Assembly: GCA_021234155.1 (NCBI GenBank)
Contig: JAJEKV010000028.1
Location: 17,038,825 to 17,102,824 of the forward strand
Source: Isoetes taiwanensis
Lineage: Eukaryota > Streptophyta > Lycopodiopsida > Isoetales > Isoetaceae
Direction: 5' to 3'
Length of the DNA stretch: 64,000 bases
This document shows, one piece after another, positions 3,421 to 24,484 of the stretch. The position numbers were made by a program, and so were the translations under genes. How positions within the stretch are numbered: the stretch's first letter is position 1; every line of letters begins with the position of its first letter. Under the pieces are notes generated by a model. It did no database searches. It was not told where the DNA came from and worked only from the letters and a program-made list of their open reading frames with translations.

Positions 3421-4377
3421 CCCGACGACGACGGCGAGGAAGCCCGCTGACTACATTCGTGGTGAGTGTCACATCTTTGCCGCAATAGATACGTAACAAG
3501 CGCAGAGCCGTATAAAGTAATTTCCACGAAGAGGGAAGGCCAAGGCCAAGTCCTTCATAGTCTTGATAGACTCCTGAAGTAGCCATAACTTTGCATCCCC
3601 CGTAATGGTTCAAATGTTGAAGTTGAAACCACTAAAGTCAAAGCCAAGGCCCGCTTGTCTTAGCAAGTAGTGCAAGAAGACGATGGCGTGCAAGAGAATT
3701 AACTTCGACATCGACTTGCCGGTGGATTAAGATCCGGATGGGGCAGTAAGTAATGGGCATTGGCAAGCACGATTTGATCATAGGAATGGAGTATCTTGGA
3801 CCAGCAGGAGCCATCATCGATTGTGGAAAGCGGAAGGTGACCTTCCCAACACCCGACGGCAAGATCATCGAGATCACAGGTAAAGAAGTTGTTCCCATCA
3901 TGCAGTGCATGTCTTCTAAGCGGTCGCCTGGCGCATCAAGAGCGGTCAGTGGCATACATCTTCAAGCTTGAAATTGATGAGCCGTAATCGAGGAAAGCAA
4001 AGAAGACAGTGGTGCTCAAAGAAGTTGCCGAAGCAAATAGCTCACCTGATCACGTAATTCCATGATCTCTTTCCGATGAGATCAAGCAGCCTTCCTCCTT
4101 ATAGGGGAGTCGAGTGTGAGATAGCACTCGAGCCGGGAGCAAAGCCGACAAGTAAGGCTCCATACAGAATGACGACGCAGGAGTTGACGGAGCTGAAGAA
4201 GCAATTGCAGGAGTTGCTCGACCTAGGCTTCATTAGACCTAGTGTCTCGCCATTTGGAGCGCCCATTCTCTTTGTAAAGAAGAAGGATGGCAGTTTAAGG
4301 ATGTGCATAGACTATAGGCAGTTGAACAAGCACACCATTAAGAACAAGTATGCGCTCCCCAGATCAGACGACTTGAT
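3420..4377 (+). pseudogene. Protease and reverse transcriptase N-terminus of copy II (interrupted)
   Basis: Continues from gag through the aspartic protease region (about 3540-3640, with the protease Asp-Ser-Gly damaged) into the linker with [16 protein letters not shown] (3753-3971). It then enters reverse transcriptase fingers (4076-4377: [25 protein letters not shown]). The reading ends exactly at TTGAT, the duplicated target of copy I, and the rest of the domain continues at 18974. Several frameshifts are present. Confidence 0.85.
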
Positions 4378-5736
4378 TGTGACGTTCCGGACAAAGATAC
4401 GCCCCGTGACGATAATTTATCGCCGCCACGCGCATTACACGCCATCCCCGACCGACGCCATCGCCGACATATAGCCAAGTGGGTAGCCCTAGGGGGCAAC
4501 TTGCTAGAAATGTGCATTGGCATTAATGTGCACATTTACCAATGTACACATTAATGTGGGCACACATTTCCATATGGACACCTTATGCCAAGTGGGCCAT
4601 ACCCATAGGTGCAATTAATGTGCACAATCCCCAATGTGCACCTTCATTAATGTGCACACATTCCCATGTGGGCAAATTTTGCCACCTAGCCATTAATGGC
4701 AAGTGGGCCCATTCCCAATTATCCCACATGCCAAAAGGGGATAATTGGAAACCCTAACCAACCCCATGTCTATTTAGGAGGGGAAACCCTAACTTGCCCA
4801 TTTTCGTTTCTAGGGCTTTAGAACTCTGTTTTGGCTGCCTCAAGAGCCAAAACCGCCTCCCGTGACTTCACCGAGTGATTTGTACCCTTAGTTTCCATTG
4901 ATTCGAGTGTTTCAGCAGGATGGTCGAGCTCAGGTCAGGAGGAGTCCCTCAAGGATCAGGTATTTAGGCAATTTAATAGCTTAAACCCTCTTTTTGCCCA
5001 TAGCAGCCTTCTAGATCTCTAGATACCAGACTCTAACTAAAGAACCTAACTCTATGATATAGATTAGATCTTGTTCTTTAGTTCTCTTATGATGTATGTG
5101 GATGATGTATCTCTATGAACTCCTTGTATTGGGAAGGGGGTAGAGACCTAAAGCTTGGTAGTAGATGCCCTAGATTAGCCTCTCTAGCACCATATAGATT
5201 CGCCTCCAGTACAAGAGCCACACCGGGTTGTGGGGTGAAGGGGCTAGACTGGCTCATAAGGAGGTTCATGTCCCGACTCTTGAACGATCCACTCGGGCGA
5301 TAAAGTCTACCGGGATCATTGTGACTAGGTCTAATGGCTTGCCACCGAGTGTGGGCGGTGGCATGGGCTCGACACCCGGAAGTGGGGTTCACTTTCCATT
5401 GGGTTCAAGTCGAATAAGAGCAAAGGGCTCTCTAGTCTCCTTGAGTCAAGATGTAGATCTCTGGAGGGAGTGATCCCCGCCGCCCCATCGGACACGGGAG
5501 ATGTAACCCGTGAATAGCCCTTTCGGCTATGCATCCCATGAGCTCTGATCCAAGTCCCAACACTTTTCAACCTACTCGCAGAAAGTGTGCACAGGAGGGG
5601 CGGATGGAGTGGACTACCCAGTGCCATGTTTTTATGCCAGCCAAATCCATTGCCATGAATTCTGTCTGCAATGAACTCTGGAGATCCAAGCTTGTCAGTC
5701 CATCCCTGTGTCTGAGCCTTGGGTAGGATTCCCTAT

Positions 5737-5975
5737 CCCGGGGGATGCACTTGTACATAACGGGGGTATGGCATCTGCGTTCGGAGGGTAGCAAAAAACC
5801 CCCCTTGTATACACATTTTTAAAGGGCAATTTGACCCCTATGTGTATAAATATTGCTCCAGATCAGTGCCTAAAAACACCCCTAACCCCCAAGTATACGT
5901 ACGCAAATGGTCCAAAAAACACCCCTCCGTTGAACTCTCATGGGTTATACGCTAATAAAAGGTGAATCCCCCGGG
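5737..5975. mobile_element. MITE-like element with CCCGGGGGAT ends
   Basis: A 239-bp block bounded by CCCGGGGGATGCAC on the left and GTGAATCCCCCGGG on the right, near-perfect inverted ends. The interior has CA-rich modules (AAAAAACACCCC) and TATACGTACGCAAA. A related sequence with the same CCCGGGGGATTCAC end sits at 60322 inside the Harbinger transposase. I cannot assign a superfamily, and no clear target duplication is visible because a LINE fragment abuts its right side. Confidence 0.5.
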
Positions 5976-6555
5976 TTCCCAGGGATGGTTAAAAGATTTC
6001 TGGAATTGGGCAAAAAAGTGGGGGCTTTCAGAAACTAACTGGCCATCTGACAAAGAGGAAGCAAGAACACTATTAGAAAGGCTTGCAATAGACCTTTTAT
6101 GGGCTGTCCCAGGCAGCAAGATGCTATACTACAGAGGGAAAGTCAACCACATGGACGAATATAAGAGTCAACCATACTTAGATGCTGATATTCCAAAGAT
6201 ATACAAACAAACAATAGCGAGATATAGAACTAGCTCACACAGATTGGAGATAGAGACAAGCAGATGGTTTAGAGTTCCACAGGAAGATAGGAAGTGTAAA
6301 TTATGTGGTTCAGGTAGAGTGGAAGACGAAGACCATGCATTTTTACATTGTTCGGTTTATGCACACATTAGAGATGAGTTTGACATACACGTGGATGATT
6401 TCTTTACATTGCTAAATATGGAACCTTATTTTTTAGGTGAGTATCTAACCAAGGTTGATACACATCGGAAATTTTTGTTGACGTTGTAAATAGAGTGCTC
6501 CATGACCTCTCAAGGTCCTAAGAGAGCATCGACCAAATAAATAAATAAAAATAAA
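5976..6555 (+). pseudogene. LINE 3' fragment (zinc-binding domain after RT)
   Basis: An open frame (about 5985-6489) encodes the end of a non-LTR retrotransposon ORF2. It has a segment with LDADIPKIYKQTIARYRTSSH and then a Cys/His cluster, CKLCGSGRVEDEDHAFLHC, the zf-RVT-type module that follows plant LINE reverse transcriptases. The frame ends at a stop and is followed by an A-rich AATAAATAAAAATAAA tail, as expected of a 5'-truncated LINE. It lies within the LTR of copy I: sequence up to CCCTAT at 5736 resumes as ATGCATTG at 6556. The RT domain itself is absent. Confidence 0.75.
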
Positions 6556-6830
6556 TATATGCATTGTGCTGATCATTGTCTATGCAGATGTGATGTACCA
6601 CCCTAGGGGTGGGTATGTGATGCTTTGTATACTGACATGTATGTTTACGCTTCCGCAGCTAGGTAGGCCCTGAGGGAGACGGGGTAAATGACCCCTTCAC
6701 TCTTCCCACTGGAACCCGTCTCAGTTGCAGTGTCATGTGGAGGGCCCTGTATCGGCATGGCGCTGGTATGGGGGGAGAACTCCTGTTTGTATACGGTGGG
6801 AGCACCGTATACGAGTAGGGGACGTCACAG

Positions 6831-6842
6831 TGGTATCAGAGC
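6831..6842 (+). other. Primer-binding site, initiator Met tRNA type (copy I)
   Basis: TGGTATCAGAGC begins one base after the LTR end (ACGTCACA, 6822-6829). This is the standard plant LTR-retrotransposon PBS complementary to the 3' end of initiator methionine tRNA. It primes minus-strand cDNA. Confidence 0.95.
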
Positions 6843-7034
6843 AATGTTCTTGGTGACCAAGAGCAAAGCACTGACCATGTTCCCAGTAGTACTAACTTAG
6901 TAGGATCCTTAAACCTCGAAAAATGGGAAAATGTTTTCTCATTTTTGTAGTATTGCTAAGCTAGTAACATTTAAAATATATGAAACATAAAAAGAGTAAG
7001 AATTGGTGAGCCAACCTTCAAAAAAGTAGGGTGG

Positions 7035-7100
7035 TCTCACACGTCGCGCCAGGACAGGAAATGAGATTTTCATTTTCGGGCTGGGCGCAACGTGTGAGAC
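7035..7100. repeat. Type I hairpin module, unit 1
   Basis: Perfect 11-bp inverted repeat GTCTCACACGT and ACGTGTGAGAC. Inside it is a second complementary pair, GCGCCAG and CTGGGCGC, and a loop that is itself partly self-complementary (AATGAGATT, TCATTTTC). It lies upstream of the histone H3-like gene; its twin is at 7235. Confidence 0.9.
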
Positions 7101-7234
7101 ATTCAGCTTGAACACATTAAAAAGTCATGAATTACAATAAAATAGTTTGATAATTCTAAATTAGAGCTAAGAATCAGTAGAATTAGCAAGTTACATAATT
7201 AAAAAGTAGCAAATTTGATAGTGGGCCCCACCAT

Positions 7235-7301
7235 GTCTCACACGTCGCGCCAGGACAGAAAATGAGATTCTCAAAATCGGTCTGGGCGCAACGTGTGAGA
7301 C
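7235..7301. repeat. Type I hairpin module, unit 2
   Basis: Same outer arms and inner GCGCCAG/CTGGGCGC pair as the unit at 7035. Only the loop differs. It sits 92 bp before the TATA box of the H3-like gene. Confidence 0.9.
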
Positions 7302-7392
7302 CTTGCTTAGATTAAGGTGTTTTAGGTGCTCTAGATAACCCAAAAAGGTAGTTTCAAGTTTGACCTAAAAAAAAAAAAAAAAAAAATTGCCC

Positions 7393-7402
7393 CTATAAAT
7401 AG
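7393..7402 (+). promoter_or_regulatory. TATA box of the H3-like gene (copy I)
   Basis: CTATAAATAG, a consensus plant TATA box, ends 95 bp before the ATG at 7498. The same decamer lies at almost the same distance before the H3-like gene in copies III (24626) and IV (33478, minus strand). This suggests an internal promoter independent of the LTR. Confidence 0.75.
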
Positions 7403-7497
7403 ACCTCGACCCCCACATTTTTCGACCACTTTAGAAAAATTCGCCTTCTTTGCCAAGGCGATCTTTTGGCAGAGTCTGACGGCCGAACCGGCCGAAC

Positions 7498-8745
7498 ATG
7501 GCCCTGACGAAAACAAACCGCTAGAAAGCCTCGCCCGGCACATCCTCTAGCGCCAGTGACCCCAGTCTGATTCAAAGGGCACTTCGCGAACGCCTTCTCA
7601 ATCAGGGGGAATCTTCATCAAGCGAGGGGACAGACTCGGACCGGAGCAATCAGACGGAGATCATAGAGAAGGAGCGCCCGGACATCATGCAGCAAATCCT
7701 CGAAGAGATCGCCGAGGAGGAAAGGAGAAGCAGAGAAGAATCGAGCAGAGGGGACAGCCGATCAGTCGAACAACAAATAAGCTTGGGGCCCGGCCCGCAA
7801 GAGGAGGAGGAGAGACAGAACAGCAGCCGCCAAAGCTTACCCCTCGAAGAAGCAGACCTCGCTGCCTTCATCGCGAGTATGAAGACAAGGAGCCACGAGA
7901 GCAGAGGGACTAAGAACCGGGAAGACGGCCCAACCATAGCCGGCGGGCCAAAGAAGAGGAAGGCCAAGGGCATCAAGGCGGGCGCGTAAGAGTCGCCAAG
8001 GTTGGTGTTTTACGCGGAGGGCCCCGTCATCAATGAGCCGTCAGGTGAAGAGACCCCGCCTTCGACCGACGACTCGGACGACGATTATGTCCCCAACACA
8101 GAGGGGGCAAGCTCTTCGAGAACCCCGGTCGCAGAGAAGGAGGCACCCGAGCAGGTGGCGCCTGATGGGCAGCAGCCTGGGCAGCCGCAGAAGCCCCCAC
8201 CATTCCCGACGTGGGACAGAGTCAAAGCCCCGCGGACGCAATGGGAAGCTTATGTGATAGACCCCGTAAAGGTCTATCAGAAGAGGATCAAGGAGCACAA
8301 CGCTTACATGGCGAAGTGGGAGGCCTACAATGCCTATTACCAGGAGCACAGGGTGAGAACAATAGAAGGCGGACATCCGACAAGAAGCCAAACCTTGAAG
8401 CCGCCACCACCCAGGCCCAAGCCTCCCCGAGCACCAGGGAAGAAGCGAAGCAAGAAGAAGAAGTCGGAGGACGGAGCTCTCAAGGAGATCCGGCACTTCC
8501 AGAAGAGTTATGGACTCTTGATCCCTCGGGCACCGTTCCAACGCTTGGTCCGTGAAGTCATGCAGGAGTACAACACGGACATGCGAGTAACCGACGAAAT
8601 GCTGCTGTGCTTACAGGAGGCAGCGGAGGCGAAAATAGTGCAGCATTTTGAAGATTCGACGGCCTGCACAGTGCACGCGAAGAGGGTTACCCTCATGAGG
8701 CAAGATATGTATCTTGCCAGGCACATCAAGGGAGAACGCCCTTGA
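7498..8745 (+). pseudogene. Histone H3-like protein, retrotransposon-encoded (copy I)
   Basis: About 400 residues when frames are followed by eye. The start at 7498 reads Met-Ala and then, after a one-base slip in an A run, KQTARK, the canonical H3 tail around K4-K9. A Ser-rich and acidic part follows (7590-7900), a basic nuclear-localisation-like GPKKRKAK (7945-7970), then a conserved module with [10 protein letters not shown] and [18 protein letters not shown] (8200-8330), a Pro/Lys linker, and an H3-type fold (8476-8745). The fold keeps [25 protein letters not shown] and ends IKGERP; about half of some 87 positions equal canonical H3. Loop 1 has canonical length, unlike CENH3. Frame breaks lie near 7505, 7535 and 7990, but 8002-8745 is fully open. 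Likely nuclear. The nucleosomal role is inference. Confidence 0.9.
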
Positions 8746-8890
8746 GATTTTTGTAAATAACAGAAAATTTTGTTAATATAAAGAATTTTGTGAATAAATA
8801 ATGTGTCTAATCTAGCTTAATTAAGTTAAGTTATAGAATTCTAGCTTTTGTTTTGATAAAATTGGAGTTTTTGCGCAAAATTGAGATGAT

Positions 8891-8957
8891 GTCTCACACG
8901 TCGCGCCAGGACAGAAAATGAGATTCTCATTTTCGGGCTGGGCGCAACGTGTGAGAC
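8891..8957. repeat. Type I hairpin module, unit 3
   Basis: Arms GTCTCACACGT and ACGTGTGAGAC with the inner GCGCCAG/CTGGGCGC pair. It lies between the H3-like gene and the second accessory gene, as the first of a pair in front of the latter. Confidence 0.9.
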
Positions 8958-9089
8958 CATGCCCAAAAGTGCCCAAAACAGCTCCAAATCGACCAAATAA
9001 GGGGTCAATTCTGCCTAACTCGACGAGTTTAGTGGAATTACAGTCTTAAATCACCCAAATTGATTAAGTTTAGGCCATTTAGGACCCAT

Positions 9090-9156
9090 GTCTCACACGT
9101 CGCGCCAGGGCAGATAATGAACTTTTCAAAATCGGTCTGGGCGCAACGTGTGAGAC
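9090..9156. repeat. Type I hairpin module, unit 4
   Basis: Same arms and core as the other units, with an altered loop. The spacing to unit 3 (about 200 bp between starts) matches that between units 1 and 2, so the pair was probably duplicated or maintained as a promoter module. Confidence 0.9.
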
Positions 9157-9335
9157 CTCGCACCATTTCCTTCACCAAATGATCTCCAGTTGCTGCAATA
9201 GGATTCATTAGTTGTTCTTAGCATGCTTTAAACCAAGAATCAGCCTTCAAACCCTCAATTGCACCTCCTAATAGGTCAGAATCGCCCAACTCCAGCAAAT
9301 TCTAGGTCATCCAAAAATTAGGGTTTTCCCCTTTT

Positions 9336-9345
9336 CTATAAATAG
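9336..9345 (+). promoter_or_regulatory. TATA box of the second accessory gene (copy I)
   Basis: CTATAAATAG ends 113 bp before the ATG at 9459. The copy IV counterpart (31350-31359, CTATATATAG) lies about 110 bp before its conserved ATG. Confidence 0.72.
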
Positions 9346-9458
9346 GCCCATCATTTTCCAATTAGCACCCTGCAAGTTTGCTCTCCACTGCTTAGGCGAT
9401 CTTCCAGCTCCTTGAGGCGCTTCTGCATTCGCTTGATACTCCCTTCCTTGCTAGATCA

Positions 9459-10985
9459 ATGGCCACTGCTGACTTCAGGCGATGGTACAGCGCCAGTGCC
9501 CATGCTGCTGAGGCAGATGTCAATGACATCTTCCTCGTCTTCGGGAAGGAAATTGATATCCAAGCTACGCTGAATGCAACCCCAGCATATAGGCGAGTAT
9601 TAACAGAGTTCCAAGCTAGGGTAGAACCCTCCCTTGTCCAGGTTCCCCCCTGCATAGGATACTTTGTTCCCCGCCAATCCCTTCAAGCAGCCTTGGGTGA
9701 TGTCCCCAACATCGCCAAGTACTTAACCAACAAAGCGCAGAGGCTACCCGACTACATGGTCCTGACAGCTAACAGGACCAAGTACTTCTCCTACACCGCT
9801 GCCTTAGCCATTTTCTTATCCCACCGTGCCGAAAACCCAATGGGGGCAACCTCTATCCCTCCGATGGAGGTGGACCCCATAGCAGTGCAAGCAGAAGAGC
9901 AGATGCTTTTGCAGTATCAGCAAGAGCAGGAACGAGAAGACGAAGAAGAAGAGGAGTCCGACGACGATAAGTACACGGAGCTCGACTCAGAGGAGGAACG
10001 GCAACAAGCAGAACAGGAGATGATGAACTTCGAGCAGAGCCGGCAGAATATCAGAGTTGCTCCCCCACTCGGGCTAGGCATCACAAGCCTAGCCCCAATC
10101 ATCATCAACGGAGAGGAGTATTTGCTCCTCAGCGACATCCAGAACCTTCCCGAGTGCAGGGAGAGGGAGCTCAGATTGGATGAATTACTCCACCAGCTAC
10201 GGCAGTCAGACTTGGACGACTTCATCGTCCGGGGAGCCTCGGACTTTCCGCTCCAAGTGAGGGAAGCCGACACATACACAGGAGAGTCGACTCCAGACAT
10301 ACAGGCCTACAGCAGTATCAGGCAAATGATGGAGGAGCAAGAGCTGCCAACGGAGGAGGAGTTCCTCGCCCTCCAAGAACAGATGGGGATCCGTGGGAAG
10401 ACCACGAGCATTCTAATGCCAAGGCCTTCGACACCACCTCCAACAAGAGGAGCAGGAATCGACCTCAGACGAATCGACACCACAATCGAAGACTACCGGG
10501 AGCTCACCGAGATAGAGGTCGACAAATACGCCGGACGGCATAGAGCAGGAGGCCAAGCAAGTGGAGAAGCTTCAGCGACGCACAACGACAGGTCCCTGAG
10601 GTACTACCTGCCGCTGCTGCTAGATGGGAGAATAGCGGTAATCCACCGCAAGTTCAGCCCAAGAGGTGAAGAAGGAGTGTTCATGCTGATTGCACTCTCA
10701 GGCTTTGGCAGGCATGCTCGCTTAGCGCCAAACGTCGACTATGCTGTCCTGGTCAAGAGAGCAATGGCGCTTGACCTCTTCGATTTCGCCATACCCCATC
10801 GACGTCAGGCGAGATTGGCGGTGACCGCGGCCCTTACAACCGACCGCAGAGTGGAAGACCTGGCGAGAGCCTTGCAGGGCGGCTCGTCAGCAAGCGTCAT
10901 CAGGAACTTGGGTCATTCGGTAGGAATGGCCCAAGTTAAGAATTTCCTTGAGGACAACCCGTCTTACTGGCGATTTCAAGACTAG
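9459..10985 (+). CDS. Accessory protein of unknown family with acidic tract (508 aa)
   Basis: Intact 508-residue frame; the start ATGGCCACTGCT is conserved in copy IV. I do not recognise the family. The N-terminal domain (about 1-130) contains WYSASAHAAEAD and PPCIGYFVP. A strongly acidic tract follows (about 145-185, with EREDEEEEESDDD). A middle segment has GLGITSLAPIIINGEEYLLLSD and FLALQEQMGIRGK. The C-terminal domain (about 375-500) has RYYLPLLLDGRIAVIHRKF and GEEGVFMLIALSGFG. There is no signal peptide or membrane segment. It lies between the H3-like gene and gag with its own TATA box. Acidic tracts are common in histone chaperones and its neighbour is a histone, so a chaperone-like partner is a guess only. 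This is the only undamaged gene of copy I, and copy IV keeps its length. Confidence 0.85.
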   Translation: MATADFRRWYSASAHAAEADVNDIFLVFGKEIDIQATLNATPAYRRVLTEFQARVEPSLVQVPPCIGYFVPRQSLQAALGDVPNIAKYLTNKAQRLPDYMVLTANRTKYFSYTAALAIFLSHRAENPMGATSIPPMEVDPIAVQAEEQMLLQYQQEQEREDEEEEESDDDKYTELDSEEERQQAEQEMMNFEQSRQNIRVAPPLGLGITSLAPIIINGEEYLLLSDIQNLPECRERELRLDELLHQLRQSDLDDFIVRGASDFPLQVREADTYTGESTPDIQAYSSIRQMMEEQELPTEEEFLALQEQMGIRGKTTSILMPRPSTPPPTRGAGIDLRRIDTTIEDYRELTEIEVDKYAGRHRAGGQASGEASATHNDRSLRYYLPLLLDGRIAVIHRKFSPRGEEGVFMLIALSGFGRHARLAPNVDYAVLVKRAMALDLFDFAIPHRRQARLAVTAALTTDRRVEDLARALQGGSSASVIRNLGHSVGMAQVKNFLEDNPSYWRFQD

Positions 10986-11371
10986 TTAGACTCTTGATCC
11001 CGGAGAATTTTTTGTACTGAACTACTATATAATATAAATATAATTTCTTTTGCACTTTAAATGTTTTGTTGATATGCTTGCCCCACAACTATACCAACAA
11101 ACATAAACAATGCAAGAGAACAAGTAAATCTAACCATATAGCTATGAATTACTTGTGTATGCAGCTAGAGGCCTAGGCTCAGGAGAACAACAACGCCGAG
11201 ACATCATGGAAGAACAGACTCCCACCTGCACCACCTCCCAAGAAGGAACCTATTTGAAGAAATGGAACCCATGACCCCAGAGAGGAGGAGATATCCCCTG
11301 ATGAGGACGGACCTTGAGCGATAAAGGCTCTCGCTTAGCCGCACAAGGAACAAAGTTCGGGGCACGCCAAA
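10986..11371 (+). other. Leader between accessory gene and gag (copy I)
   Basis: Non-coding or degraded gag 5' end. It contains a TATA-like TATATAATATAAATATAA (11024-11042), which is the site interrupted by the Helitron in copy II. The part after about 11160 (GCAGCTAGAGGCC) aligns with the gag N-terminus of copy IV but is out of frame here. Confidence 0.6.
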
Positions 11372-12444
11372 TTGCCACAAGCATCAGCTCGGAAAACAGG
11401 AAGGGACAAGAAGAGGAGCAAGAGAAGGAGATCCCCTAGCTCAGATTCCTCCGACTCAAGCTCAGACTCAGATTCCGACTCCGAGGAAGAAGAAGAGCAG
11501 GCCCGGGACCGACCAGATGGAAGGCAAAGGAACACTGAAGATGGAAGGCAGAGGAACACCCCGGATGGACGACAAAGGGACACAAGAGTCTCCTCGACTA
11601 CCGTAAGAAGGTAGACTCGGCTTTGGGAAATGTTTGGAAAGCCAGAAAACTCGAGCAATTCTCGGGCGAGAACAGGTCAGGAATGGAGGCCGAGGCTTGG
11701 CTTGATGAGATGAGTGACTACGGCAACGCTTATGGTATGAAGGACAAGGATAAAGGCCGAGTAGCAACAGCCAACCTGAAAGGAGCAGCTCGCATTTGGT
11801 GGAAGGGGTATGCAAAGGCCCATGGCTTGAGCAGGGACGCTTGCAGGTTCAAGAAGTTTGCTAAAGCCTTCAAGCGCCACTACATCCCAAGAGAGCATAA
11901 GTCCAGCATGATGCAGCAGTTCTATAGGTTGCAACAGGGAAACAAATCAGTCCAGAAGTATACAGAGGAATTCATGAGGCTAAGGCTGTATGTGCCAAAG
12001 TTAGGAGAGAAGCATGCAGTGGAAAGCTATATTGAGGGGCTGAATGATGAGATTCGCAAACTGGTGAGGGCAATAAACCCTAAGACAGTATCAGAGGCGG
12101 AATGCAAGGCTATAAGCTTGCAAGGAACGGGACCTCAGAATAGCGGGCAGAGGCAGCAGTATTTCCAGGAGAAAGGCAAGGCAACAGGAAGCTATAGCCC
12201 TAGGGCAGCCAGTCCAGGTCCAGCCAGGGCCCCATATGGTGGCAACCAGGGGAAGCAGCAGGAGAAGAAGCAGGTGTCCTTCAAGGACAAGCAGGAGGGG
12301 TCAAACTACTCCAAAGCAGTACGATCCTTTTTGCAGGCTATGCCCAAGGAGAAGAGGCAAGAGTGCATGGAGAAACAGCTTTGCTTCAGGTGCTTCCAGC
12401 CAGGCCATAGAACAGCGAACTGCCCTAGCGGAGTGCAGCACTAG
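11372..12444 (+). pseudogene. gag polyprotein (capsid and zinc knuckle), copy I
   Basis: The N-terminal part (11372-11614) is basic then Ser/Asp/Glu-rich (RDKKRSKRRRSPSS, SDSDSDSEEEEE). A one-base slip near 11585 separates it from the capsid frame 11623-12444. That frame has the retrotransposon gag core (WKARKLEQFSG, GAARIWWKGYAKAHGL, YTEEFMRLRLYVPKL) and ends with a CCHC zinc knuckle [14 protein letters not shown]. Copy IV has the same protein in one frame, which shows the slip is a lesion. It builds the particle and binds RNA. The TAG just after the knuckle separates gag from pol here. Confidence 0.88.
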
Positions 12445-12449
12445 CGGAG

Positions 12450-15400
12450 TTGGGAGATTGGGACATCCTGTCTGACAACGACGGCGAGGAAGCCCGCGAC
12501 TACATTCAGGGTGAGTGTCATATCTTTGCCGCAATAGATACAGAGCAAGCAGAGAGCCAGTATAAGGTAATTTCCACAGTTGGGAAGGCCAAGGCCAAGT
12601 CTTTCATAGTCCTGATAGATTCAGGAAGTAGCCATAATTTTGCATCCCCGAGAATGGTGCAAATGTTGAAGTTGAAACCGTAAGTGGAGCAGTAAGGCAG
12701 ACAGCAGGCAAAAGGATCAACTTCGACATCGATTTGCCAGGAATAAACATTCAGATGGGGGCAGAAGTAATGGGCATTGGCAAGTATGACTTGATCATAG
12801 GAATGGAATATCTTGGACCGACAGGGGCCATCATTGATTGTGGAAAGCGGAAAGTTACCTTCCCGACGGCCGACGGCAAGATCATTGAGATCACAGGTAA
12901 AGAAGTCGTTCCCATCATGCAGTGTATGTCTTCTAAACGGCTGTTCAAGTGCATCAAGAGCGAGCAAGTAGCTTACATCTTCAAGCTTGAGATCGAAGAG
13001 CCGGAGTCCGAAGAAAGCAAAGAAGACAAGGTGCTCAGTAAGTTGCCGAAGCAGATAGCTAACTTGATCACGGAATTCCATGATCTCTTTCCTGATGAGA
13101 TCGAGCATCTCCCTCCTTACAGGGGAGTCGAGTGTGAGATAGCACTCGAACCGGGAACGAAGCCGACAAGTAAGGCTCCATACAGAATGACGACGCAGGA
13201 ATTGACGGAGCTAAAGAAGCAATTGCAGGAGTTGCTCGACCTAGGCTTTATTAGACCTAGCGTCTCGCCATTTGGAGCGCCCATTCTTTTTGTCAAGAAG
13301 AAGGATGGCAGTTTGAGGATGTGCATAGACTATAGGCAGTTGAACAAGCACACCATCAAAAACAAGTATGCGCTTCCCAGGTCGGATGACTTGATGGATC
13401 AACTTCAAGGAGCAAAGGTCTTCTCCAAAATCGACTTAAGGTCAGGATATCATCAGATCCGGATAAAGGAAGAAGATATTCATAAAACCGCTTTCAGGAC
13501 GCGGTATGGACATTATGAGTTCACGGTAATGCCTTTCGGCTTATCGAACGCTCCAGCAACGTTCATGAGGCTCATGAACGATATCTTCAGGGAGTTCTTA
13601 GACACCTTTGTGATTGTGTTCTTTGATGACATTTTGGTGTATAGCAGATCCCTTGAGGAGCACGTACAACACTTAAGGAGGGTGCTAGAAAAGTTGAAGA
13701 GGCACCAGTTGTACCATTAGAGGTAATTTGAGATCTCATTTTGTCCCATTAAGGGATGCTTAAAAAGCCACATCAGCTTTTTAAATTGTCCAATAAGAGA
13801 AGAGCTCCAGTGTATTTTATTCCAGTATTATGTGGCAGCAGTAATTAATGCAGTTCTAACTAACTTTTGCAGGGTCATTTTTCTACTATAACTTTTGATC
13901 AAAAACTCCGATTCGAACACTATTTGTGGCAATGGATTCATCTCCTCAAGATCTTTCTAATGACAACCCATTGTTATATCTTTTGGGATGTAAATATATA
14001 AGAAAAGAGCAAAAAACTATATTTTTTAAGGTTAACACATATGGCTTGTATTGAAATACATCATAACCATATATCACTTGAAAGATCTTTTCATTCTGCA
14101 TCTAATGCAACAAACGCCGCAGCATTTTCATGAGTAGAGAAAAGTTATAGGGAAAAAATGACAGCAATGATGTTGTTAATGCTGCATTAATTGCAGTTTG
14201 ATGTAGAGTACTCATTCTATTGGAGGATTCTTATGGGGACAAAAGGAGATTTCAAATTACCTCTAATGGCTAAGTTGTCGAAGTGCCACTTCGCAACGGA
14301 AAAGGTGGAATATCTTGGTCATGTGATCTCTGCAGAAGGAATTTCGACGGATCCTTCCAAGATTGAAGCCGTCATTCAGTGGCCGGCACCGAAGAATGTG
14401 CATGAGGTCAGAAGTTTCCTCGGCTTAGCAGGGTACTACAGGAAGTTCGTGAAGAACTTTGCTAAGATAGCGGCCCCGCTAACAGACTTGACGAGGGCGG
14501 AGAAAGTGAAAGACTGGGTAGATCATTGGCACAAGAAAGCCCAAAAGGGGTTTGAATTGTTGAAGGAAGCTTTAACGACCGCCCCCGTCTTAACTCTGCC
14601 AGATCCAGAGAAAGATAAGCTTGTGGCAACAGATGCGAGTAAGATAGCTACAGGTGCAGTGCTCATGCAAGAAGAGCGTGTAGTAGCGTACGATTCCAGG
14701 AAGATGAACGACGCCGAAACGCGCTACCCCACGCATGATCAGGAGCTGCTTGCGGTCGTCAGGGCATTAAGAATTTGGAGGCATTACCTTTTGGGGAGAA
14801 AGTTCCAATTGGATACAGATCATCAGAGCCTCCAGTATGTATTTACGCAACCACACCTCAACCTGAGGCAGAGAAGATGGATGGAGTTCCTTGAAGAGTA
14901 TGACTTTGATATAGTCTACAAGCCAGGGAAGCTCAATGTGGTAGCGGATGCGCTTTCAAGGCATCCCCTGACAACCAGAGTGCATTGCAATGCAATTTCG
15001 ACGCTTTCCAGCGACTTCGGGAAGAAGATCGAAGAATCCTTGCCAACAGATGTCGACTTCAAGGAAGTATGGGCAAGCTTATGCAGAGAAGCAAGAACAG
15101 ATAAGGAGCGGGAAGCCTTCAAACATTTTAAGAAGGAAGGTAACCTATTATATCATAAGAACAAGTTGTGTGTGCCAGAATCTTCAGGAGTAAGGAAGTT
15201 GATCCTCCATGACACACACAACAGTCCAATAGCTGGTCATGCGGGATTCATGAAAACATATTTCAAAGTACGCAGCAGCTATTATTGGCCAGGAATGAAG
15301 AAGCAGGTAGCTCGCTACATCAAGGAATGTCAGCTTTGTCAGCAAACGAAGGCAGAACAGCTTCGAATTCCAGGAGCTTTGGAGCCCTTAGCGGTGCCAA

Positions 15401-16511
15401 ACGCTAAGTGGGAGGTCATCAGCATGGATTTCATCACAGGGCTTCCAAGGACAGTAAGAGGGAAGGATGCTTTGATGGTAGTAGTCGACAAGTTGTCGAA
15501 GATGGCACATTTTGTGCCTTGCAGGACCACAGATACAGCTATGGATACAGCAAAGCTCTTCACCAAAGAGATCTTCAGACTTCATGGTATGCCAAGGGAG
15601 ATTATCTCCGACAGGGATCCGAAGTTCATGAGCGCCTTTTGGCAAGACCTCTTTGCGACCATTCAGACGAAGTTATCCATGAGCACGGCGTATCATCCTC
15701 AGACGGATGGCCAAACGGAGAGGACCAACAGAATTTTGGAGGACATGCTATGAAACTATGTCTGGAATAAACAAGGTATGTGGGAAGAATTTATTCACTT
15801 GGTGGAGTTTGCATACAATAGCACCAAGCAGGAATCATCCCAAATGTCGCCGTGATCAATTACGGCTATCAATGCCTAACTCCAGACACTTGGCACAATC
15901 CTGTGTCAAAAGTAGAAGTCTCCCAGCAGATGTTGGCCGATATGCAGCAGTTCGTGGAAGAAGTGTGAGGGTATCTCCTAGCAGCAAGGAGTCGGCAGAA
16001 GAGCATCGCCGACAAGCATCAAACAGTCAGAGAGTTCGAAGTTGGCGACAATGTGTGGCTCAAGATCAAGGTGAAGCAGGCGAAGCTCAGGATCGGGAAT
16101 TGTAAGAAGCTTGCTCCAAAGTGGGCGGGACCTTTCAAAATAGTCCAGAGAGTAGGTAGCCAATCCTACAAGCTAGAATTGCCGCCGCACCTAAAGATTC
16201 ATAAGGTCTTCCACGTGAGTCTATTGAAGAAACACACTCCAAATCCAGACGAAATCTTGGACACTCCAACGTTGTTGGAAATGACGGAGGAGGAGCTGGA
16301 AATAGTTCCAGAATTGATCCTTGATAAAGCTTTCAAGAAAACAAGGAGATCAGAGTTTCTTCAGTATTTGGTCAAGTGGAAACACTTGCCAGTGGAAGAC
16401 GCCACGTGGGTACTCGAGAAAGACCTAGTAAAAAAGTATCCACAGTTCATGGAGCAATGGGACGGCAAGGTACCTATGCTAGGTATGGGTTGCATGCGTT
16501 GTAACCGATGA
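12450..16511 (+). pseudogene. pol polyprotein: protease, RT, RNase H, integrase, chromodomain (copy I)
   Basis: Aspartic protease [11 protein letters not shown] (12600-12640). RT runs 13090-13710 with [26 protein letters not shown] and the catalytic FFDDILVYS; it is cut by a MITE and resumes at 14270 ([17 protein letters not shown]). RNase H is near 14620-14960. Integrase has a zinc-binding HHCC (CQLCQQTK near 15340) and a DDE core (MDFITGLP, SDRDPKF, ending TNRILEDML). A CGA-to-TGA change stops the frame at 15753, and frameshifts follow. The integrase C-terminus plus chromodomain is open at 16053-16511 (LQYLVKWKHLPVEDATWV). The chromodomain keeps the Trp of the methyl-lysine cage but has Ile and Leu at the other two aromatic positions, as in group II chromoviral chromodomains. 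Confidence 0.92.
13714..14269. mobile_element. MITE (556 bp) inside reverse transcriptase of copy I
   Basis: Inverted ends CCATTAGAGGTAATTTGA and their near-complement at 14230-14269, about 35 bp in all, running on into TTTTGTCCC. The interior is AT-rich and non-coding. It interrupts RT between ...RHQL and AKLSKCHF. The flanks read GTA and CTA, so the target duplication is unclear. It is absent from the same position in copies II and IV. Confidence 0.85.
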
Positions 16512-17309
16512 TGAGACCGCTACGGTGATCTCTAGGGCGTGGTGTAATGTCGATGTAGGCATGACCGCGTTTCCGCTTGGAAGAGTGGAAGGTAGATTAG
16601 AAAGTCTACTTCTGTCCCACGGAAGTAGACGACCTCGAGAGAAAGGAGGTCATGGAAGGATGCATTCATAGGAAAAGCACCTCTAGCCCCATATATGCTT
16701 TGATAGGAGGAATCTGGCCTTCACGCCCCCATACGGGAAGGACCTGTCCTCCACGCTGGGCAACTAGGGTGTAGGCATGAGAGGCATATAGGCATTTAGG
16801 CGCTGTCTCCTCGGCCATTATGGAAGATTCACCCTCTTCCTACGCCGGGAGATTAGCCATGCATCCATGTAGATAGGTGGGGTGGTCATCATATAACCAA
16901 AATTTTATTAATAATTAAAATGGTACTAACGTAGTGTCGACCTGCAGGCCAATAGAGCGCTCCGGAGGGCAAGGAGGTCGAGCTACGAAGACTTGCAACA
17001 CAAATTTTGTTGGAATGTGTTGCAAGGAATGAGGAGTACCTCGGACGTTAATTTTAATTTTGATAAACTTAATTGCCATGATAAGTGAATTATTGAATAA
17101 CCTGTTTTAATGATGTTGTGAATTGATGAGTTATTTCATAATATAATCACGTAATAATGTTCTAAAAATATTACCTTAAGGTAATGTTAATAATTGTGTA
17201 AATGTGATAGTAGTATATTGTATGTATCAGGGTGATTGCAGGTTTAGGAAGTTCCCAAGGTGGGGAGACCCACGATGCTGCGGACAGCATCATTTCAAGG
17301 GGGGGAGAA
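16512..17309 (+). other. 3' untranslated region and polypurine tract of copy I
   Basis: About 785 non-coding bases that align with 21560-22405 of copy II. It ends with the purine run AAGGGGGGGAGAA (17297-17309) directly before the 3' LTR, the plus-strand primer. Confidence 0.88.
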
Positions 17310-18968
17310 TGTGATGTTCCAGCACAGTATACGGCCCCAGGACGCATACGGTACTGCCCCGTCACGCGTACACGCCATCCCGACTGACGCGTACGCCGAC
17401 ATATAGCCAAGTGGGTAGCCCTAGGGGGCAACTTGCTAGAAATGTGCATTGGCATTAATGTGCACATTTACCAATGTACACATTAATGTGGGCACACATT
17501 TCCATATGGACACCTTATGCCAAGTGGGCCATACCCATAGGTGCAATTAATGTGCACAATCCCCAATGTGCACCTTCATTAATGTGCACACATTCCCATG
17601 TGGGCACATTTTGCCACCTAGCCATTAATGGCAAGTGGGCCCATTCCCAATTATCCCACATGCCAAAAGGGGATAATTGGAAACCCTAACCAACCCCCAT
17701 GTCTATTTAGGAGGGGAAACCCTAACTTGCCCATTTTCGTTTCTAGGGCTTTAGAACTCTGTTTTGGCTGCCTCAAGAGCCAAAACCGCCTCCCAGACTC
17801 TGCCTGAGTGATCTGTACCCTTAGTTTCCATTGATTCGAGTGTTTCAGCAGGATGGTCGAGCTCAGGTCAGGAGGAGTCCCTCAAGGATCAGGTATTTAG
17901 GCAATTTAATAGCTTAAACCCTCTTTTAGTCATAAAATTAGTAGGTTTAGCCTATTTAATTGCCCATAGCAGCCTTCTAGATCTCTAGATACCAGACTCT
18001 AACTAAAGAACCTAACTCTATGATATAGATTAGATCTTGTTCTTTAGTTCTCTTATGATGTATGTGGATGATGTATCTCTATGAACTCCTTGTATTGGGA
18101 AGGGGGGTAGAGACCTAAAGCTTGGTTGCTCCTAGATTAGCCTCTCTAGCACCATATAGATTCGGCCTGTGTACAAGAGCCACACCGGGTTGTGGGTGAA
18201 GGGGCTAGACTGGCTCATAAGGAGGTTCGTGTCCTGACTCTTGAACGATCCCTCTGGCGTGTAAAGTCTACCGGGGATCATTGTGACTAGGTCTAATGGC
18301 TTGCCACTGAGTGTGGGCAGGGCATGGGCTCGACACCCGTGAAGTGGGGTTCACTTTCCATTGGGTTCAAGTCGAATAAGAGCAGTGGCTCTCTAGTCTC
18401 CTTGAGTCAGCATGTAGATCTCTGGAGGGAGTGATCCCTGCCTGCCCCATCGGACCTGGGGAGATGTAACCCAGGAATAGCCCTTTCGGCTATGCATCCG
18501 GCGGGCTACAGTCAAGTCCCAACACTTTTCAACCTACTCTGCAAAGTGTGCACAGGAGGGGCGGATGGAGTGGACTACCCAGTGCCATGTTCTTATGCCA
18601 GCCAAATCCATTGCCATGAATTCTGTCTGCAATGAACTCTGGAGACCCAAGCTTGTCAGTCCATCCCTGTGTCTGAGCCTTGGGTAGGATTCCCTATATG
18701 CATTGTGCTGATCATTGTCTATGCAGATGTGATGTACCACCCTAGGGGTGGGTATGTGATGCTTTGTATACTGACATGTATGTTTACGCTTCCGCAGCTA
18801 GGTAGGCCCTGAGGGAGACGGGGTAAATGACCCCTTCACTCTTCCCACTGGAACCCGTCTCGGTTGCAGTGTCATGTGGAGGGCCCTGTATCGGCATGGC
18901 GCTGGTATGGGGGGAGAACTCCTGTTTGTATACGGTGGGAGCACCGTATATGAGTAGGGGACGTCACA
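17310..18968 (+). repeat. 3' LTR of copy I
   Basis: 1,659 bp, starting TGTGATGTTCC and ending GACGTCACA, flanked on the right by TTGAT. It lacks the insertion found in the 5' LTR and differs from it by scattered substitutions and small indels, so copy I is not very recent. Confidence 0.95.
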
Positions 18969-18973
18969 TTGAT

Positions 18974-21540
18974 GGATCAACTCCAAGGTGCAAAGGTCTT
19001 CTCCAAAATCGACTTAAGGTCAGGTTATCATCAGATCAGGATAAAGGAAGAAGATATCCATAAGACCGCCTTCAGAACGCGGTATGGGCATTATGAGTTC
19101 ACGGTAATGCCTTTCGGCTTATCGAATGCCCCCGCGACGTTCATGAGGCTCATGAACGACATCTTCAGGGAGTTTTTAGACACCTTTGTGATTGTATTCT
19201 TTGATGACATTTTGGTGTATAGCAGATCCCTTGAAGAGCACGTACAACACTTAAGGAGAGTGCTAGAGAAGTTGAAGAGGCACCAAGCAGTAACGCCAAG
19301 TTGTCGGGCGTCACTTCGCAATGCAGAAGGTGGAATACCGGGTCATGTGATCTCAGCAGAAGGAATCTCGACGATCCCGCCAAGATTGAAGCCGCCATTC
19401 AAAGGGCGGCCAAGAATGTGCATGAAGTCGAAGTTTCTCGGCCTAGCGGTACTACAGAAGTTCGTGAAGAACTTTGCTAAGATAGCGCCCCATTAACAGA
19501 CTTTGACGAGGGCGGAGAAAATGAAAGATTGGGCAGAGCATTGGCACAAGAAAGCCCAAGCAGGGTTTGAATTGTTGAAGGAAGCTTTAACAACTGCCCC
19601 AGTCTTAACCCTGCCGGACCCGAAGAAAGATAAGCTTGTAGCAAATGACGCCGAAAGTAAGATAGCTACAAAAAGCAGTCCTCATGCAAGAAGAGCGTGT
19701 GGTAGCGTATGATTCCAAGAAGATGAACGACGCCAAACGCCGCCTACCCCACCCACGATCAGGAATTGCTTGCGGTTGTCAGGGCATTAAGAATTTGGAG
19801 GCACTACCTTTTGGGAAGGAAGTTCCAGTTGGATACAGACCATCAGAGCCTCCAGTATGTATTCACGCAACCACACCTCAACCTGAGGCAGAGAAGGTGG
19901 ATGGAGTTCCTTGAAGAGTATGACTTTGATATAGTCTACAAGCCAGGGAAGCTCAATGTGGTAGCGGATGCGCTTTCAAGGCATCCCCTGACAACTAGAG
20001 TGCATTGCAATGCAATTTCGACGCTCTCCAGCGACTTTGGTAAGAAGATTGAAGAGTCCTTGCCAACGGATGTGGATTTCAAGGAAGTATGGGCAAGCCT
20101 CTCTAGGGAGGCTAGAACAGATAAGGAGCGGGAAGCCTTTAAACATTATAAGAAGGAAGGCAACCTGTTATACCATAAGAACAAGTTGTGCGTACCCGAA
20201 TCATCAGGTGTAAGGAAATTGATCCTCCACGACCGCTGCAGCCCAATAGGCTGGCCATGCGGGATTCATGAAAACATATTTCAAAGTGCGTGGCAGCTAT
20301 TATTGGCCAGAATGAAGAAGCGGTAGCTCGCTACATCAAGGAATGCCAGCTATGTCAGCAGACAAAGGCGGAACAGCTCCGAATTCCAGGGGCCTTAGAG
20401 CCATTAGCGGTGCCAAACGCTAAATGGGAGGTGATTAGCATGGATTTCATCACAGGACTCCCAAGGACTGTAAGAGGGAAAGACGCTTTGATGGTAGTAG
20501 TCGACAAGTTGTCAAAAATGGCACATTTTGTGCCTTGCAGGACCACAGATACGGCTATGGATACAGCGAAGCTCTTCACCAAAGAGATCTTCAGGCTTCA
20601 TGGCATGCCAAGGGAGATTATCTCCCGGCGGGGATCCGAAGTTCATGAGTGCCTTCGGCAAGATCTATTTCTTGGCGATTTATCTCGCGAAGGTATCCAT
20701 GAGCACGCATATCATCCTCCCATCGGATGGCCAATTGGAGCGGACCAACAGGATTTTAGAAGACATGCTACGAAAACTATGTCCGAATAAGCAAGGTATG
20801 TGGGAAGAATTTATTCACTTGGTGGAGTTTGCATACAATAGCACCAAGCGGAATCATCCCAAATGTCGCCGTTTATGATCAATTACGGCTATCGATTACC
20901 TAACTCGGATACTTGGCACAACCCCGCGTGTCAAAAGTGGAAGTTTCGCAGCCAGATGTTGGCCGATATCACGGCAGCCTTGTGGAAGAAGTTCGAGGGT
21001 ATTTGTTAGCAGCAAGAAGTCGACAAAAAGAGCATCGCCGACAAGCATCGAACAGAGAAGAGAGTTCAAAGTTGGAGATGATGTTTGGCTCAAGATCAAG
21101 GTGAAGCAAAGTGAAGCTTCGGGATCGGAATTGCAAGAAGCTTGCTCCAAGGTGGGCTGGACCTTTCAGAATAGTCAAGAGAGTAGGTAATCAATCCTAC
21201 AAGCTAGACTTGCCAGCACACCTAAAGATTCATAAGGTCTTCCACGTGAGTTTGTTAAAGAAGCACACCCCAAATCCAGACGAAGTCTTGGACTCTCCAA
21301 CGTTGTTGGAAATGACGGAGGAGCAGCTAGAAATAGTTCCAGAATTAATTCTTGATAAAGATTTCAAGAAAACGAGGAGATCTGAGTTTCTCCAATATTT
21401 GGTCAAGTGGAAACATGCCAGTGGAAGACGCGACATGGGTACTTAAGAAAGATTTAGTAAAGCAGTACCCACAGTTTATGGAGCAATGGGACGGCAAGGT
21501 CATCTCCGAAGAAATCGGCTCAGGCATGTCGATTTGTGTA
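18974..21540 (+). pseudogene. pol C-terminal two-thirds of copy II
   Basis: RT palm with FFDDILVYS (18974-19290), then a badly scrambled RNase H start (19300-19760). Next come RNase H/connection (19766-20250), integrase (20330-20790, MDFITGLPRT) and the integrase C-terminus with chromodomain (21111-21540). The catalytic SDRDPKF and the end of the DDE core are mutated, and the chromodomain is frameshifted within VKWKHLP near 21415. More than ten indels are visible relative to copy I. Confidence 0.88.
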
Positions 21541-22417
21541 GATTAATTCTATGTATAGTTAAGATTAATCTACGCATGCAACCTATGCTTGGTACGGGTC
21601 GCATGCGTGTTACCGATGATGGGACCACTACGGTGATCTCTAGGGCGTGGTGTAATGTCAATGTAGGCATGACCGCATTTCCGCTTGGGCGAGTGGAAGG
21701 TAGATTAGAAAGTCTACTTCTGTCCCACAGAAGTAGACGACCTCGAGAGAAAGGAGGTCATGAAGGAATGCACTGATAGGAAAAGCACCTCTAGCCCCAT
21801 ATATGCTTTGATAGGAGGAATCAGGCCTTCACGCCCCATATACGGGAAGGACCTATCCTCCACGCTGGGCAACTAGGGTGTAGGCATGAGCGGCATATAG
21901 GCATATAGGCGCTGTCTCCACGGCCATAATGGAAGATTCACCCTCTTCCTACGCCGGGAGATTAGCCATGCATCCATGTAGATAGGTGGGGTGGTCACCA
22001 TATAACCAAAATTTTATTAATAATTAAAATGGTACTAACGTAGTGTCGACCTGCAGGCCAATAGAGCGCTCCGGAGGGCAAGGAGGTCGAGCTACGAAGA
22101 CTTGCAACACAAATTTTGTTGGAATGTGTTGCAAGGAATGAAGAGTACCTCGGACGTTAATTTTAATTTTGATAAACTTAATTGTCATGTTAAGTGAATT
22201 ATTGAGTAACCTGTTTTAATGATCTTATGAATTGATAAGTTATTTCATAATATAACGGCGTGATAATGTCCTGAAAATATTACCTTAAGGTAATCGTAAT
22301 AAATGTGTAAGTATTATAGTAGCTTATAGTATGTATCAGGTTGATTGTAGGTTAGGATGATCCCAAGGTGGGGAGACCCACGATGCTGCGGACAGCATCA
22401 TTTCAAGGTGGGGAGAA
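21541..22417 (+). other. 3' untranslated region of copy II
   Basis: Non-coding. It aligns closely with 16480-17309 of copy I, including a run of AATTTTATTAATAATTAAAATGG and the final purine tract. Confidence 0.8.
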
Positions 22418-24080
22418 TGTGACGTTCGGCCGACGATTATCACGGTCCCGGGGCGTATCTTTGCCTTTGCCTAAATCCGCAGCATACCGCCACTCCGACC
22501 GGCGCGTAATGCAGCTAACGTGTAGCCAGGTGGGTAGCCCTAGGGGGCAACTTGCCAAGAAATATGTGCAACTATTAATGTGCACATTTTCTAATGTACA
22601 CATTAATGTGGGCACACATTTCCATGTGGACACTTGATGCCAAGCGGGCCATACCCAAGTGTGCAATTAATGTGCACATTTTCCAATGTACACATTAATG
22701 TGGGCACACATTTCCATGTGGGCACATTTTGCCACCTAACCATTAAAGGCAAGTGGGCCCATTCCCAATTATCCCACATGCCTAAAGGGGATAATTGGAA
22801 ACCCTAGCCAACCCCTTGTCTATTAAGGGAGGGAAACCCTAACTTGCCCAATTTTCGTTTCTAGGGTTTTAGAACTCTGTTTTGGCTGCCTCAACAGCCA
22901 AAACCGCCTCCCAGACTCGGCCTGAGGGAATTGCACCATTAGTTTCCCTTGATTCGAGTGTTTCAGCAGGATGGTCGAGCTCAGGTCAGGAGGAGCCACT
23001 CAAGGACCAGGTATTTGGCCAATTAGATAGTCTAAACCCTATTTTAGTCATAGAATCAGTAGGTTTAGCCTATTAAATTGCCCATAGCAGCCTTCTAGAT
23101 CTCTAGATACCAGCCTCTAACTAAAGAACCTAACTCTATGATGTAGATTAGTTCTTCTGTGATGTATGTGGATGATGTATCTCTATGAACTCCTTGTATT
23201 GGGAAGGGGGGTAGAGACCTAAAGCTTGGTAGTAGATGCTCCTAGAGTAGCCTCTCTAGCACACTATAGATTCGGCCTGTGCACAAGAACCACACCTGGT
23301 TGTGGGTGAAGGGGCCAGACTGGCTAAGAAGGAGGTTCATGTCCTAACTCTTGAACGATCCCTCTGGTGTGTAAGGCCTACCAGGGATCACTGTGACTAG
23401 GTCTAATGGCTCACCACCGAAAAGGGGGTGAGGCATGGACTCGACACCCGTGAAGTGGTGTACACTTTCCAGTGGGTTCAGTCGGATACGGGCAGTGGCC
23501 CTCTAGTCACCTTGAGTAAGCATGTAGACCTCTGGAGGGAGTGATCCCTTCCTGCCCCATCGGAACTGGGAGGATGAAACCCAGGAATAGCCCTTTTGGC
23601 TATGCCTCCGGCGGGCTACAGTCAGGTCCCGACACTTTTCAGCCTACTCTGCAAAGTGTGCAGAGGAGGGGCGGATGGAGTGGACAACCCTATGCCATGT
23701 TCATATGCCAGCCAAATCCATTGCCATGAATTCTGTCCGCAATGAACTCTGGAGACCCAAGCCGTCAGTCATCCCCTTGAGTCTGAGCTTTGGGTAGAGT
23801 TCCCCATATGTATTGTACTCACCTTGTTTATGCAGATGTGATGGACCACCCTTCGAGGTGGATATGTGCTTATGTTATATTCTGACATGTATGTTTACGC
23901 TTCCGCAGCTAGGTAGACCCTGAGGGAGACGGGGTAAAATGACCCCTTCACTCTTCCCACTGGAACCCGTCACGGTTGCAGTGTTATGTGGAGGGCCCTG
24001 TATCGGCATGGAGCTGGTATGGGGGATGAACTCCTGTTTGTATACGGTGAGTGCACCGTATACGAGTAGGGGACGTCACA
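22418..24080 (+). repeat. LTR shared by copies II and III
   Basis: 1,663 bp, TGTGACGTTC to GACGTCACA. It has a polypurine tract on its left and a PBS on its right, so it acts as the 3' LTR of copy II and the 5' LTR of copy III. This LTR-internal-LTR-internal order usually arises by unequal recombination between LTRs of one family. Confidence 0.92.
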
Positions 24081-24351: not shown

Positions 24352-24484
24352 ATTCAGCTTAAACACTTAAAAAGTCATAAATCACAGTAAAATAACTTGA
24401 TAATTCTAAATTTAAGCTAAGAATCAGTAGAATTGGCATGTTACATGTTTAAAAAGTACAAAATTTAGTAGTGGGTCCCACCAT

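Follow-up and report, generated by a model that had tools for sequence, protein, structure and literature searches.

We found that a chromodomain-bearing Ty3/gypsy retrotransposon of Isoetes taiwanensis carries a histone H3-like gene between its primer-binding site (PBS) and gag, and that copies of this gene recur at the same place in many elements of the host genome. We read the product as an element-encoded variant of histone H3 lying between the PBS and gag of many chromodomain Ty3/gypsy retrotransposons of this host, a reading to which we give a probability of about 0.55; we regard it as close to certain that the gene truly belongs to the element and is under selection there.

An H3-like gene in a chromodomain retrotransposon

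The window, that is, the whole stretch of 64,000 nucleotides analyzed here, holds three copies of the gene, named A, B and C like the elements that carry them. The gene of element A has its ATG at 7498 and a stop codon ending at 8745 on the plus strand, exactly as originally predicted, and the genes of copies B and C occupy the same element position. The features are as follows, with the basis of each in brackets.

Element A, plus strand
4375-6829: 5' LTR, truncated at its 5' end (self-BLAST against 17307-18971; end read from sequence)
6831-6841: primer-binding site TGGTATCAGAG (sequence match)
7032-7103: palindrome 1, upstream of the H3-like gene (folding as DNA at -24.1 kcal/mol, z -8.1)
7233-7304: palindrome 2, 201 bp past palindrome 1 (z -6.9)
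7394-7402: TATA-like box TATAAATAG, 104 nt upstream of the ATG (sequence match)
7498-8745: H3-like gene, tail damaged, two in-frame stops (reading frame, Pfam)
8467-8742: H3-type histone fold (PF00125 E 9.3e-28; dN/dS against copy C 0.019)
8889-8960: palindrome 1 upstream of ORF2, the second beginning 199 bp on (z -9.0)
9337-9345: TATA-like box TATAAATAG upstream of ORF2 (sequence match)
9459-10985: ORF2, 508 aa, no Pfam match (open frame)
11539-12444: gag (Retrotrans_gag, Ty3_capsid)
12638-13720: part of pol with reverse transcriptase (RVT_1 E 8e-35)
14191-15753: RNase H and integrase part of pol (RT_RNaseH, Integrase_H2C2, rve)
15969-16511: integrase C-terminus with chromodomain (Pfam Chromo PF00385, 43.2 bits, cut-off 25.1)
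16477-18968: 3' LTR (self-BLAST; TG..CA ends by eye)

Copy C, plus strand
21586-24080: LTR before copy C, 90% identical to LTR A (ends by eye)
24627-24635: TATA-like box TATAAATAG, 108 nt upstream of the ATG (sequence match)
24735-25995: H3-like gene, MARTKQTTRKP..., frame broken mid-gene (reading frame, Pfam)

Copy B, minus strand
26586-28376: protease and reverse transcriptase (RVP_2, RVT_1)
28559-29626: gag (Retrotrans_gag E 3e-17)
29744-31282: ORF2, two in-frame TAG, ATG in another frame (open stretch)
32140-33377: H3-like gene of a diverged lineage, MARTKQTARKVV... (Pfam; frame break near 33150)
33478-33486: TATA-like box TATAAATAG, 109 nt upstream of the ATG (sequence match)

Element A has the LTRs, PBS, pol order (reverse transcriptase, RNase H, integrase) and C-terminal chromodomain of a chromovirus of the Ty3/gypsy group. 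The predicted placing of the gene between PBS and gag held, with the PBS at 6831 upstream and ORF2, a Ty3/gypsy gag-pol and the chromodomain downstream. The same PBS, which we take to be of the initiator-Met tRNA type, occurs at 6831, 24082 and 34083 (minus strand), once for each of copies A, C and B. Pieces of the 5' LTR are 91.6% and 98.9% identical to 17307-18971 by self-BLAST, and this LTR contains an insertion of ~820 bp (5737-6555) with a LINE-like zinc-finger ORF whose zf-RVT match falls below cut-off. Similarity of the element A pol to copy B ends near 13707. In the chromodomain, the cage positions, which we set by eye from an alignment to an HP1 sequence, presumably read I, W and L; the W is kept and the first and third aromatics are missing, so that the three cage aromatics of group I (Y24, W45, Y48) are not all present. 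By eye the domain looks like those of plant group II, which are without two of the three cage aromatics and have no known ligand.

The region 4375-24083 is a tandem array of elements with common LTRs, with pol-LTR fusion junctions near 4377 and 18971. Elsewhere the window contains long low-complexity repeats whose long ORFs, rich in F, S, P and L, are spurious (169-2016 and 40831-42728, both minus strand), Helitron-like pieces (44383-45075 and, on the minus strand, 54955-55872; Pif1 2B domain and Helitron_like_N) and a DDE_Tnp_4 transposase piece (59974-60450, minus strand).

The C-terminal part of the protein has the fold of core histone H3 by three measures. The Pfam histone family PF00125 matched element A at 97.4 bits (E 9.3e-28, residues 133-247 of window:7990-8742), copy C at 98.3 bits (25594-25992) and copy B at 69.7 bits (32140-33477, minus strand), making the proposed histone match highly significant for the A and C genes. 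Searched against the PDB, the element A fold returned only histone H3 among the best 60 of 175 distinct sequences. Aligned to the host's own H3, it is 53% identical over 98 columns, close to the "about half" estimated by eye in the original prediction. An AlphaFold2 model of the element A protein was of moderate confidence (mean pLDDT 68, with block means of 80-88 over residues 181-250), and its best Foldseek matches were nucleosome and histone-octamer structures (E 3.3e-6); the rmsd was near 10.7 Å, so the claim of a fold rests mainly on sequence. The layout is not that of host H3, a protein of 136 aa with its tail joined directly to the fold; intact element proteins have 411-427 aa.

The gene of element A is broken: it starts MALTKTNR-stop, with an in-frame stop after eight codons, and has a second in-frame stop at 7987-7989. 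Because these two stops break the frame, its tail becomes readable only when aligned with copies beginning MARTKQTARK; the predicted H3-like tail is found in those copies and is damaged in A itself. Tail and fold, thought to lie 250-300 charged residues apart, are separated by about 320 residues in intact copies, and the spacer, charged in its linker as predicted, also includes a conserved middle segment (dN/dS 0.047). Copy C, a near relative of copy A, has a single substitution in its tail (A7 to T), and its frames are broken. Copy B, absent from the original prediction, has the exact start MARTKQTARK followed by V at residue 10, and its fold is ~60% identical to that of copy A.

The box TATAAATAG also precedes ORF2 in element A, and a TATATATAG-type box does so in copy B. 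Of 20 close copies fetched, 15 could be oriented, and a TATA-like box lay upstream of the H3-like gene in 13 of them; it was present in none of the 15 loci examined, out of 20, of the other lineages described below, so that as a general trait it is unsupported beyond the window's lineages; an inverted repeat was upstream of the gene in 3 of those 15 loci. As a match to a consensus, the box is a candidate promoter only and no proof by itself. Palindromes of 72-79 nt, ~200 bp apart, lie upstream of the boxes of both the H3-like gene and ORF2 (regions 7032-7304, 8889-9160, 24285-24556, 31504-32012 and 33593-33873). All five palindromes tested folded with z between -4.9 and -9.0, and by eye their stems are conserved despite sequence differences between A and B, making them possible cis-regulatory sites or cruciforms. 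ORF2 itself had a dN/dS of 0.17 over its first 204 codons in five copies (5 of the 12 loci tried), and its structure model was uninformative (pLDDT 41). Its one homologue outside this genome among 8,000 candidates scored was P0053 (501 aa, 47% over 99%), which comes from another public data set; ORF2 thus exists elsewhere.

Recurrent position and selection across the genome

A protein search of the assembly with copy A found at least 150 places 77-100% identical, copy A included, from 11,676 first-look candidates. Many of these genomic copies are broken, as are those in the window. The available text of PMC8566536 describes an assembly from Nanopore reads with polishing, so some of the broken frames could be assembly errors. 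Among the 20 best matches to copy A (L029-L048), which we fetched as close copies, eight have intact frames. The start pattern MARTKQT(A/T)RK occurred 1,071 times in the assembly and not once in a reversed control. In a search with an H3-like protein, at least 16 of the 92 places scored were full H3 of the host type, a count that would miss genes with introns. As only these 16 appeared among the matches listed, most of the 1,071 starts are probably not host H3, and none of eight tail sites sampled from them was.

The position of the gene recurs as well. ORF2 had at least 85 scored places in the assembly, and at 35 of these, among the matches listed, an H3-like place lay 1413-1474 bp 5' on the same strand; among the matches listed, no pair within 6 kb had any other order, and chance would give 0.0003 pairings per ORF2. 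As both sets of matches are minimum counts, the remaining 50 ORF2 places weigh neither for nor against this order. We then considered 20 further loci (L009-L028), drawn from the best 150 Pfam scorers and chosen for their fold, mostly with long open frames. An exact PBS lay 1.58-1.81 kb 5' of the fold in 16 of the 20, and gag or pol followed 3' on the same strand in 18; within the stretches fetched, none had gag or pol 5' on that strand. The two exceptions were L010, with only 3.4 kb of downstream sequence, and L016, with ORF2 only. In L013 the H3-like gene sits directly upstream of gag-pol, without ORF2. The gene is therefore no pseudogene confined to one insertion, given at least 150 places and a recurrent order at the 35 listed ORF2 places and the 20 further loci, and a non-canonical ORF is kept across copies, as in extra-ORF LTR retrotransposons.

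These further loci revealed a second architecture. In the window's lineages, an H3 tail (residues 1-9) is followed by a long linker with the conserved middle segment and a fold 41-54% like host H3. In the 20 other loci, the fold comes after an N-domain of ~190 residues and a linker and is 83-89% like host H3, and the 1-9 tail is absent from all 20. The first ~190 codons of L009-L028 thus encode an N-domain (..RIPYPIFHFNERF..) fused to an almost canonical H3 fold. This domain has 42 invariant columns in five sequences and had no Pfam match in the four scanned; no relation to ORF2 was seen by hhalign (probability 0.1%). A tree of the folds sets the window-type copies apart from the other lineages. 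A single clade of all 27 element folds was not rejected (p-AU 0.185), and on this sequence comparison one ancient capture of H3 is possible.

Selection on the gene is purifying. The last 92 codons of the gene, which encode the fold, differ between copies A and C by 28 synonymous and 3 nonsynonymous changes (dN/dS 0.019), a comparison unaffected by the choice of loci. Among seven intact copies (21 pairs), dN/dS was 0.18 in the linker and 0.041 in the fold; these copies had been found by the MARTKQ pattern, which makes their tail dN/dS of 0 partly a matter of construction, and an eighth intact copy, L032, was excluded for its shifted C-terminus. The other lineages (groups of 9, 4 and 2 copies, 15 of L009-L028) gave 0.14-0.19 for the linker, 0.09-0.13 for the N-domain and 0.008-0.043 for the fold, the last value being biased low by the choice of mostly long frames. 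Across the H3-like gene, pS between A and C is ~0.48, far above their LTR divergence of ~10%, a gap that we read as recombination, or homogenized LTRs, between element lineages.

For the tail, we used 20 loci picked by similarity outside it and without the MARTKQ pattern; two could not be aligned at the start, five were gapped there and 13 were counted. Residues 1-9 had a pS of 0.42 and a pN of 0.011 over these 13 loci (78 pairs). The exact start MARTKQTARK was present in 12 of the 20 close copies, with a change in one of the 13 counted, and their residue 10 is Pro, not Ser as in H3. At the eight sites sampled from the genome-wide list, which were picked for codon variety among the first 100 listed and have the tail by construction, the sequence after the tail differed widely and position 10 was P, V or Y.

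Possible functions of the element histone

Which parts of the fold have been kept bears on what the protein may do. We compared element folds with host H3 by position class, using assumed H3 contact positions whose classes overlap at two positions. At the nine positions of the H3-H3' bundle, agreement with host H3 was 100% for the 20 other copies and 89% for six window-type copies, making this interface the best-kept class; unclassified fold positions agreed at 82% and 52%, and DNA-contact positions at 87% and 39%, respectively. Copy B showed 78% agreement at H3-H3' positions versus 39% at unclassified ones. Because DNA contacts agree less than unclassified positions in the window-type copies, these proteins may not wrap DNA normally, and judged by sequence they may form H3-H4 units with a loose hold on DNA. 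As the fold is kept, a histone partner is to be expected, most simply host H4.

We put about even odds on the protein working by entering chromatin as an H3 variant, and rank such incorporation above a decoy role and above the packing of cDNA. The gene's own promoter would drive production of the protein, the fold would pair with host H4 and, via the kept H3-H3' interface, the element H3 would enter H3-H4 tetramers or nucleosomes, to be deposited on element DNA or on sites used by the element. Host enzymes could modify K4 and K9 of the tail; no Ser10 phosphate would be possible, and a mark on the tail would be hard to remove by that route. Integrase or host readers might then use the mark for integration or for setting the element's own chromatin. 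The integrase chromodomain is a tempting partner of the tail, and direct reading of K9 methylation by it is unproven, since the domain appears to be group II, without known ligand. Tail and fold need not share one function everywhere, as the other lineages keep the fold without the 1-9 tail.

Overall, the data suggest that these elements make or mimic chromatin to their own advantage. A further-reaching proposal is that retrotransposons write their own histone code, placing an H3 that has a K4/K9 tail and no Ser10 on element DNA or at target sites and thereby tagging element chromatin for integrase or against silencing; we advance it tentatively, as possible but doubtful. Were it true, the roughly thousand tail-bearing copies would give the host an additional pool of H3, of selfish origin. 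Entry into nucleosomes, if it occurs, would give a transposon influence over its host's histone pool and would make the element-made H3 tail a direct candidate ligand for group II chromodomains.

Alternatively, the protein could act against silencing without being a working part of nucleosomes, by offering its 1-9 tail to host writers, erasers and readers of K4 and K9 or by poisoning host nucleosomes at silenced copies, allowing escape from heterochromatin. Constraint on residues 1-9 with free variation after them, eroded DNA contacts in window-type copies and a TATA-like box of its own that could permit expression apart from the LTR would all suit such a decoy. Nevertheless, a decoy has no need of a histone fold held at a dN/dS of 0.01-0.04 or of a kept H3-H3' interface, and lineages that lack the tail retain the gene; we consider this explanation unlikely. 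A further possibility is packing, a role proposed for viral histones: the protein might compact element cDNA inside the particle or within the pre-integration complex, which would suit its charged linker and the presence of gag and pol in the same element. Such packing would require host H4, since a Pfam scan saw no H4-like gene in the window's elements, and would make the H3 modification tail unnecessary, while in the window's lineages the gene's own TATA-like box would uncouple it from gag-pol, leaving this option more improbable still. That the gene is a functionless passenger, a captured host H3 fragment or pseudogene, fits the broken state of the window copies and of many genomic ones and is nonetheless very hard to credit given purifying selection, open frames in the eight intact close copies and a shared position across lineages that have only about half of their fold residues in common.

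Two specific origins were also rejected: a host H3 pseudogene is ruled out by codon statistics and the recurrent place in elements, and capture of CENH3 by the lack of a loop-1 insertion.

Comparison with known systems

The original prediction knew of no described LTR retrotransposon with a histone gene, and among the matches listed we found none in the open-licence literature, which is not proof of absence. The word "histone" is absent from the accessible portions of PMC7264820, PMC10541799 and PMC8566536, occurs once in PMC6317226, about chromodomains, and occurs twice, for other matters, in the accessible portion of PMC9289625. As far as the available text of PMC8566536 goes, repeats matching plant proteins were removed from the Isoetes taiwanensis repeat library, a filter that would probably discard these elements; annotators who filter by plant-protein match could lose histone-bearing elements in this way.

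Searches of a large protein set found no full-length relatives (best query coverage 51% among 52 matches in one search, and 22% among 28 matches, with 7,999 scored, in a second). The ENA protein P0081 reads MANTKQTARK and continues into a divergent H3 fold. Twenty-six ENA proteins among P0054-P0080 are long-tailed H3 on large contigs, and the seven read share one charged N-terminus. They resemble the element protein in being multi-copy, with a long charged N-terminus and an H3 fold, but the N-terminus of these 7 of 26 is different and without the 1-9 tail, the four placed in the tree form a separate branch, and only the fold matches in the Isoetes genome. Membership in the same family is thus unsupported by the tree and by the fold-only match, and they may represent another H3 that was amplified, or is carried by elements, independently.

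Chromoviruses are known as readers of chromatin; the chromovirus-like element described here encodes, in addition, one of chromatin's components, at high copy number and under strong constraint. Plant chromoviruses with group II chromodomains have the same LTRs, PBS, gag, protease-RT-RNase H-integrase and C-terminal chromodomain, but are not known to have the H3-like gene, usually with ORF2, between PBS and gag, or the TATA-like boxes of the window's lineages.

Core histones encoded by selfish elements have precedents among viruses, in giant viruses and in the H4 of bracoviruses. Unlike these, the histone here is one protein of H3 type that has a long linker and is encoded by a plant element replicating through reverse transcription. 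Its divergent H3 fold, IPRAPF-like stretch and long N-terminus recall CENH3/CENP-A. CENH3 has a longer loop 1 containing W, whereas the element protein has no loop-1 insertion, V in place of that W, the H3 1-9 tail and a location in a transposable element.

Bdelloid LTR retrotransposons reportedly carry captured extra ORFs. Among plant Gypsy elements, those of Phalaenopsis carry an extra ORF for a functional AlkB demethylase, according to the accessible part of PMC9289625, and there too a host-type domain in an extra ORF has been kept through many rounds of replication. Extra ORFs in plant Gypsy elements are thus already known, and the domain captured in Phalaenopsis is not a histone; the core histone is the new part of a chromovirus-like element.
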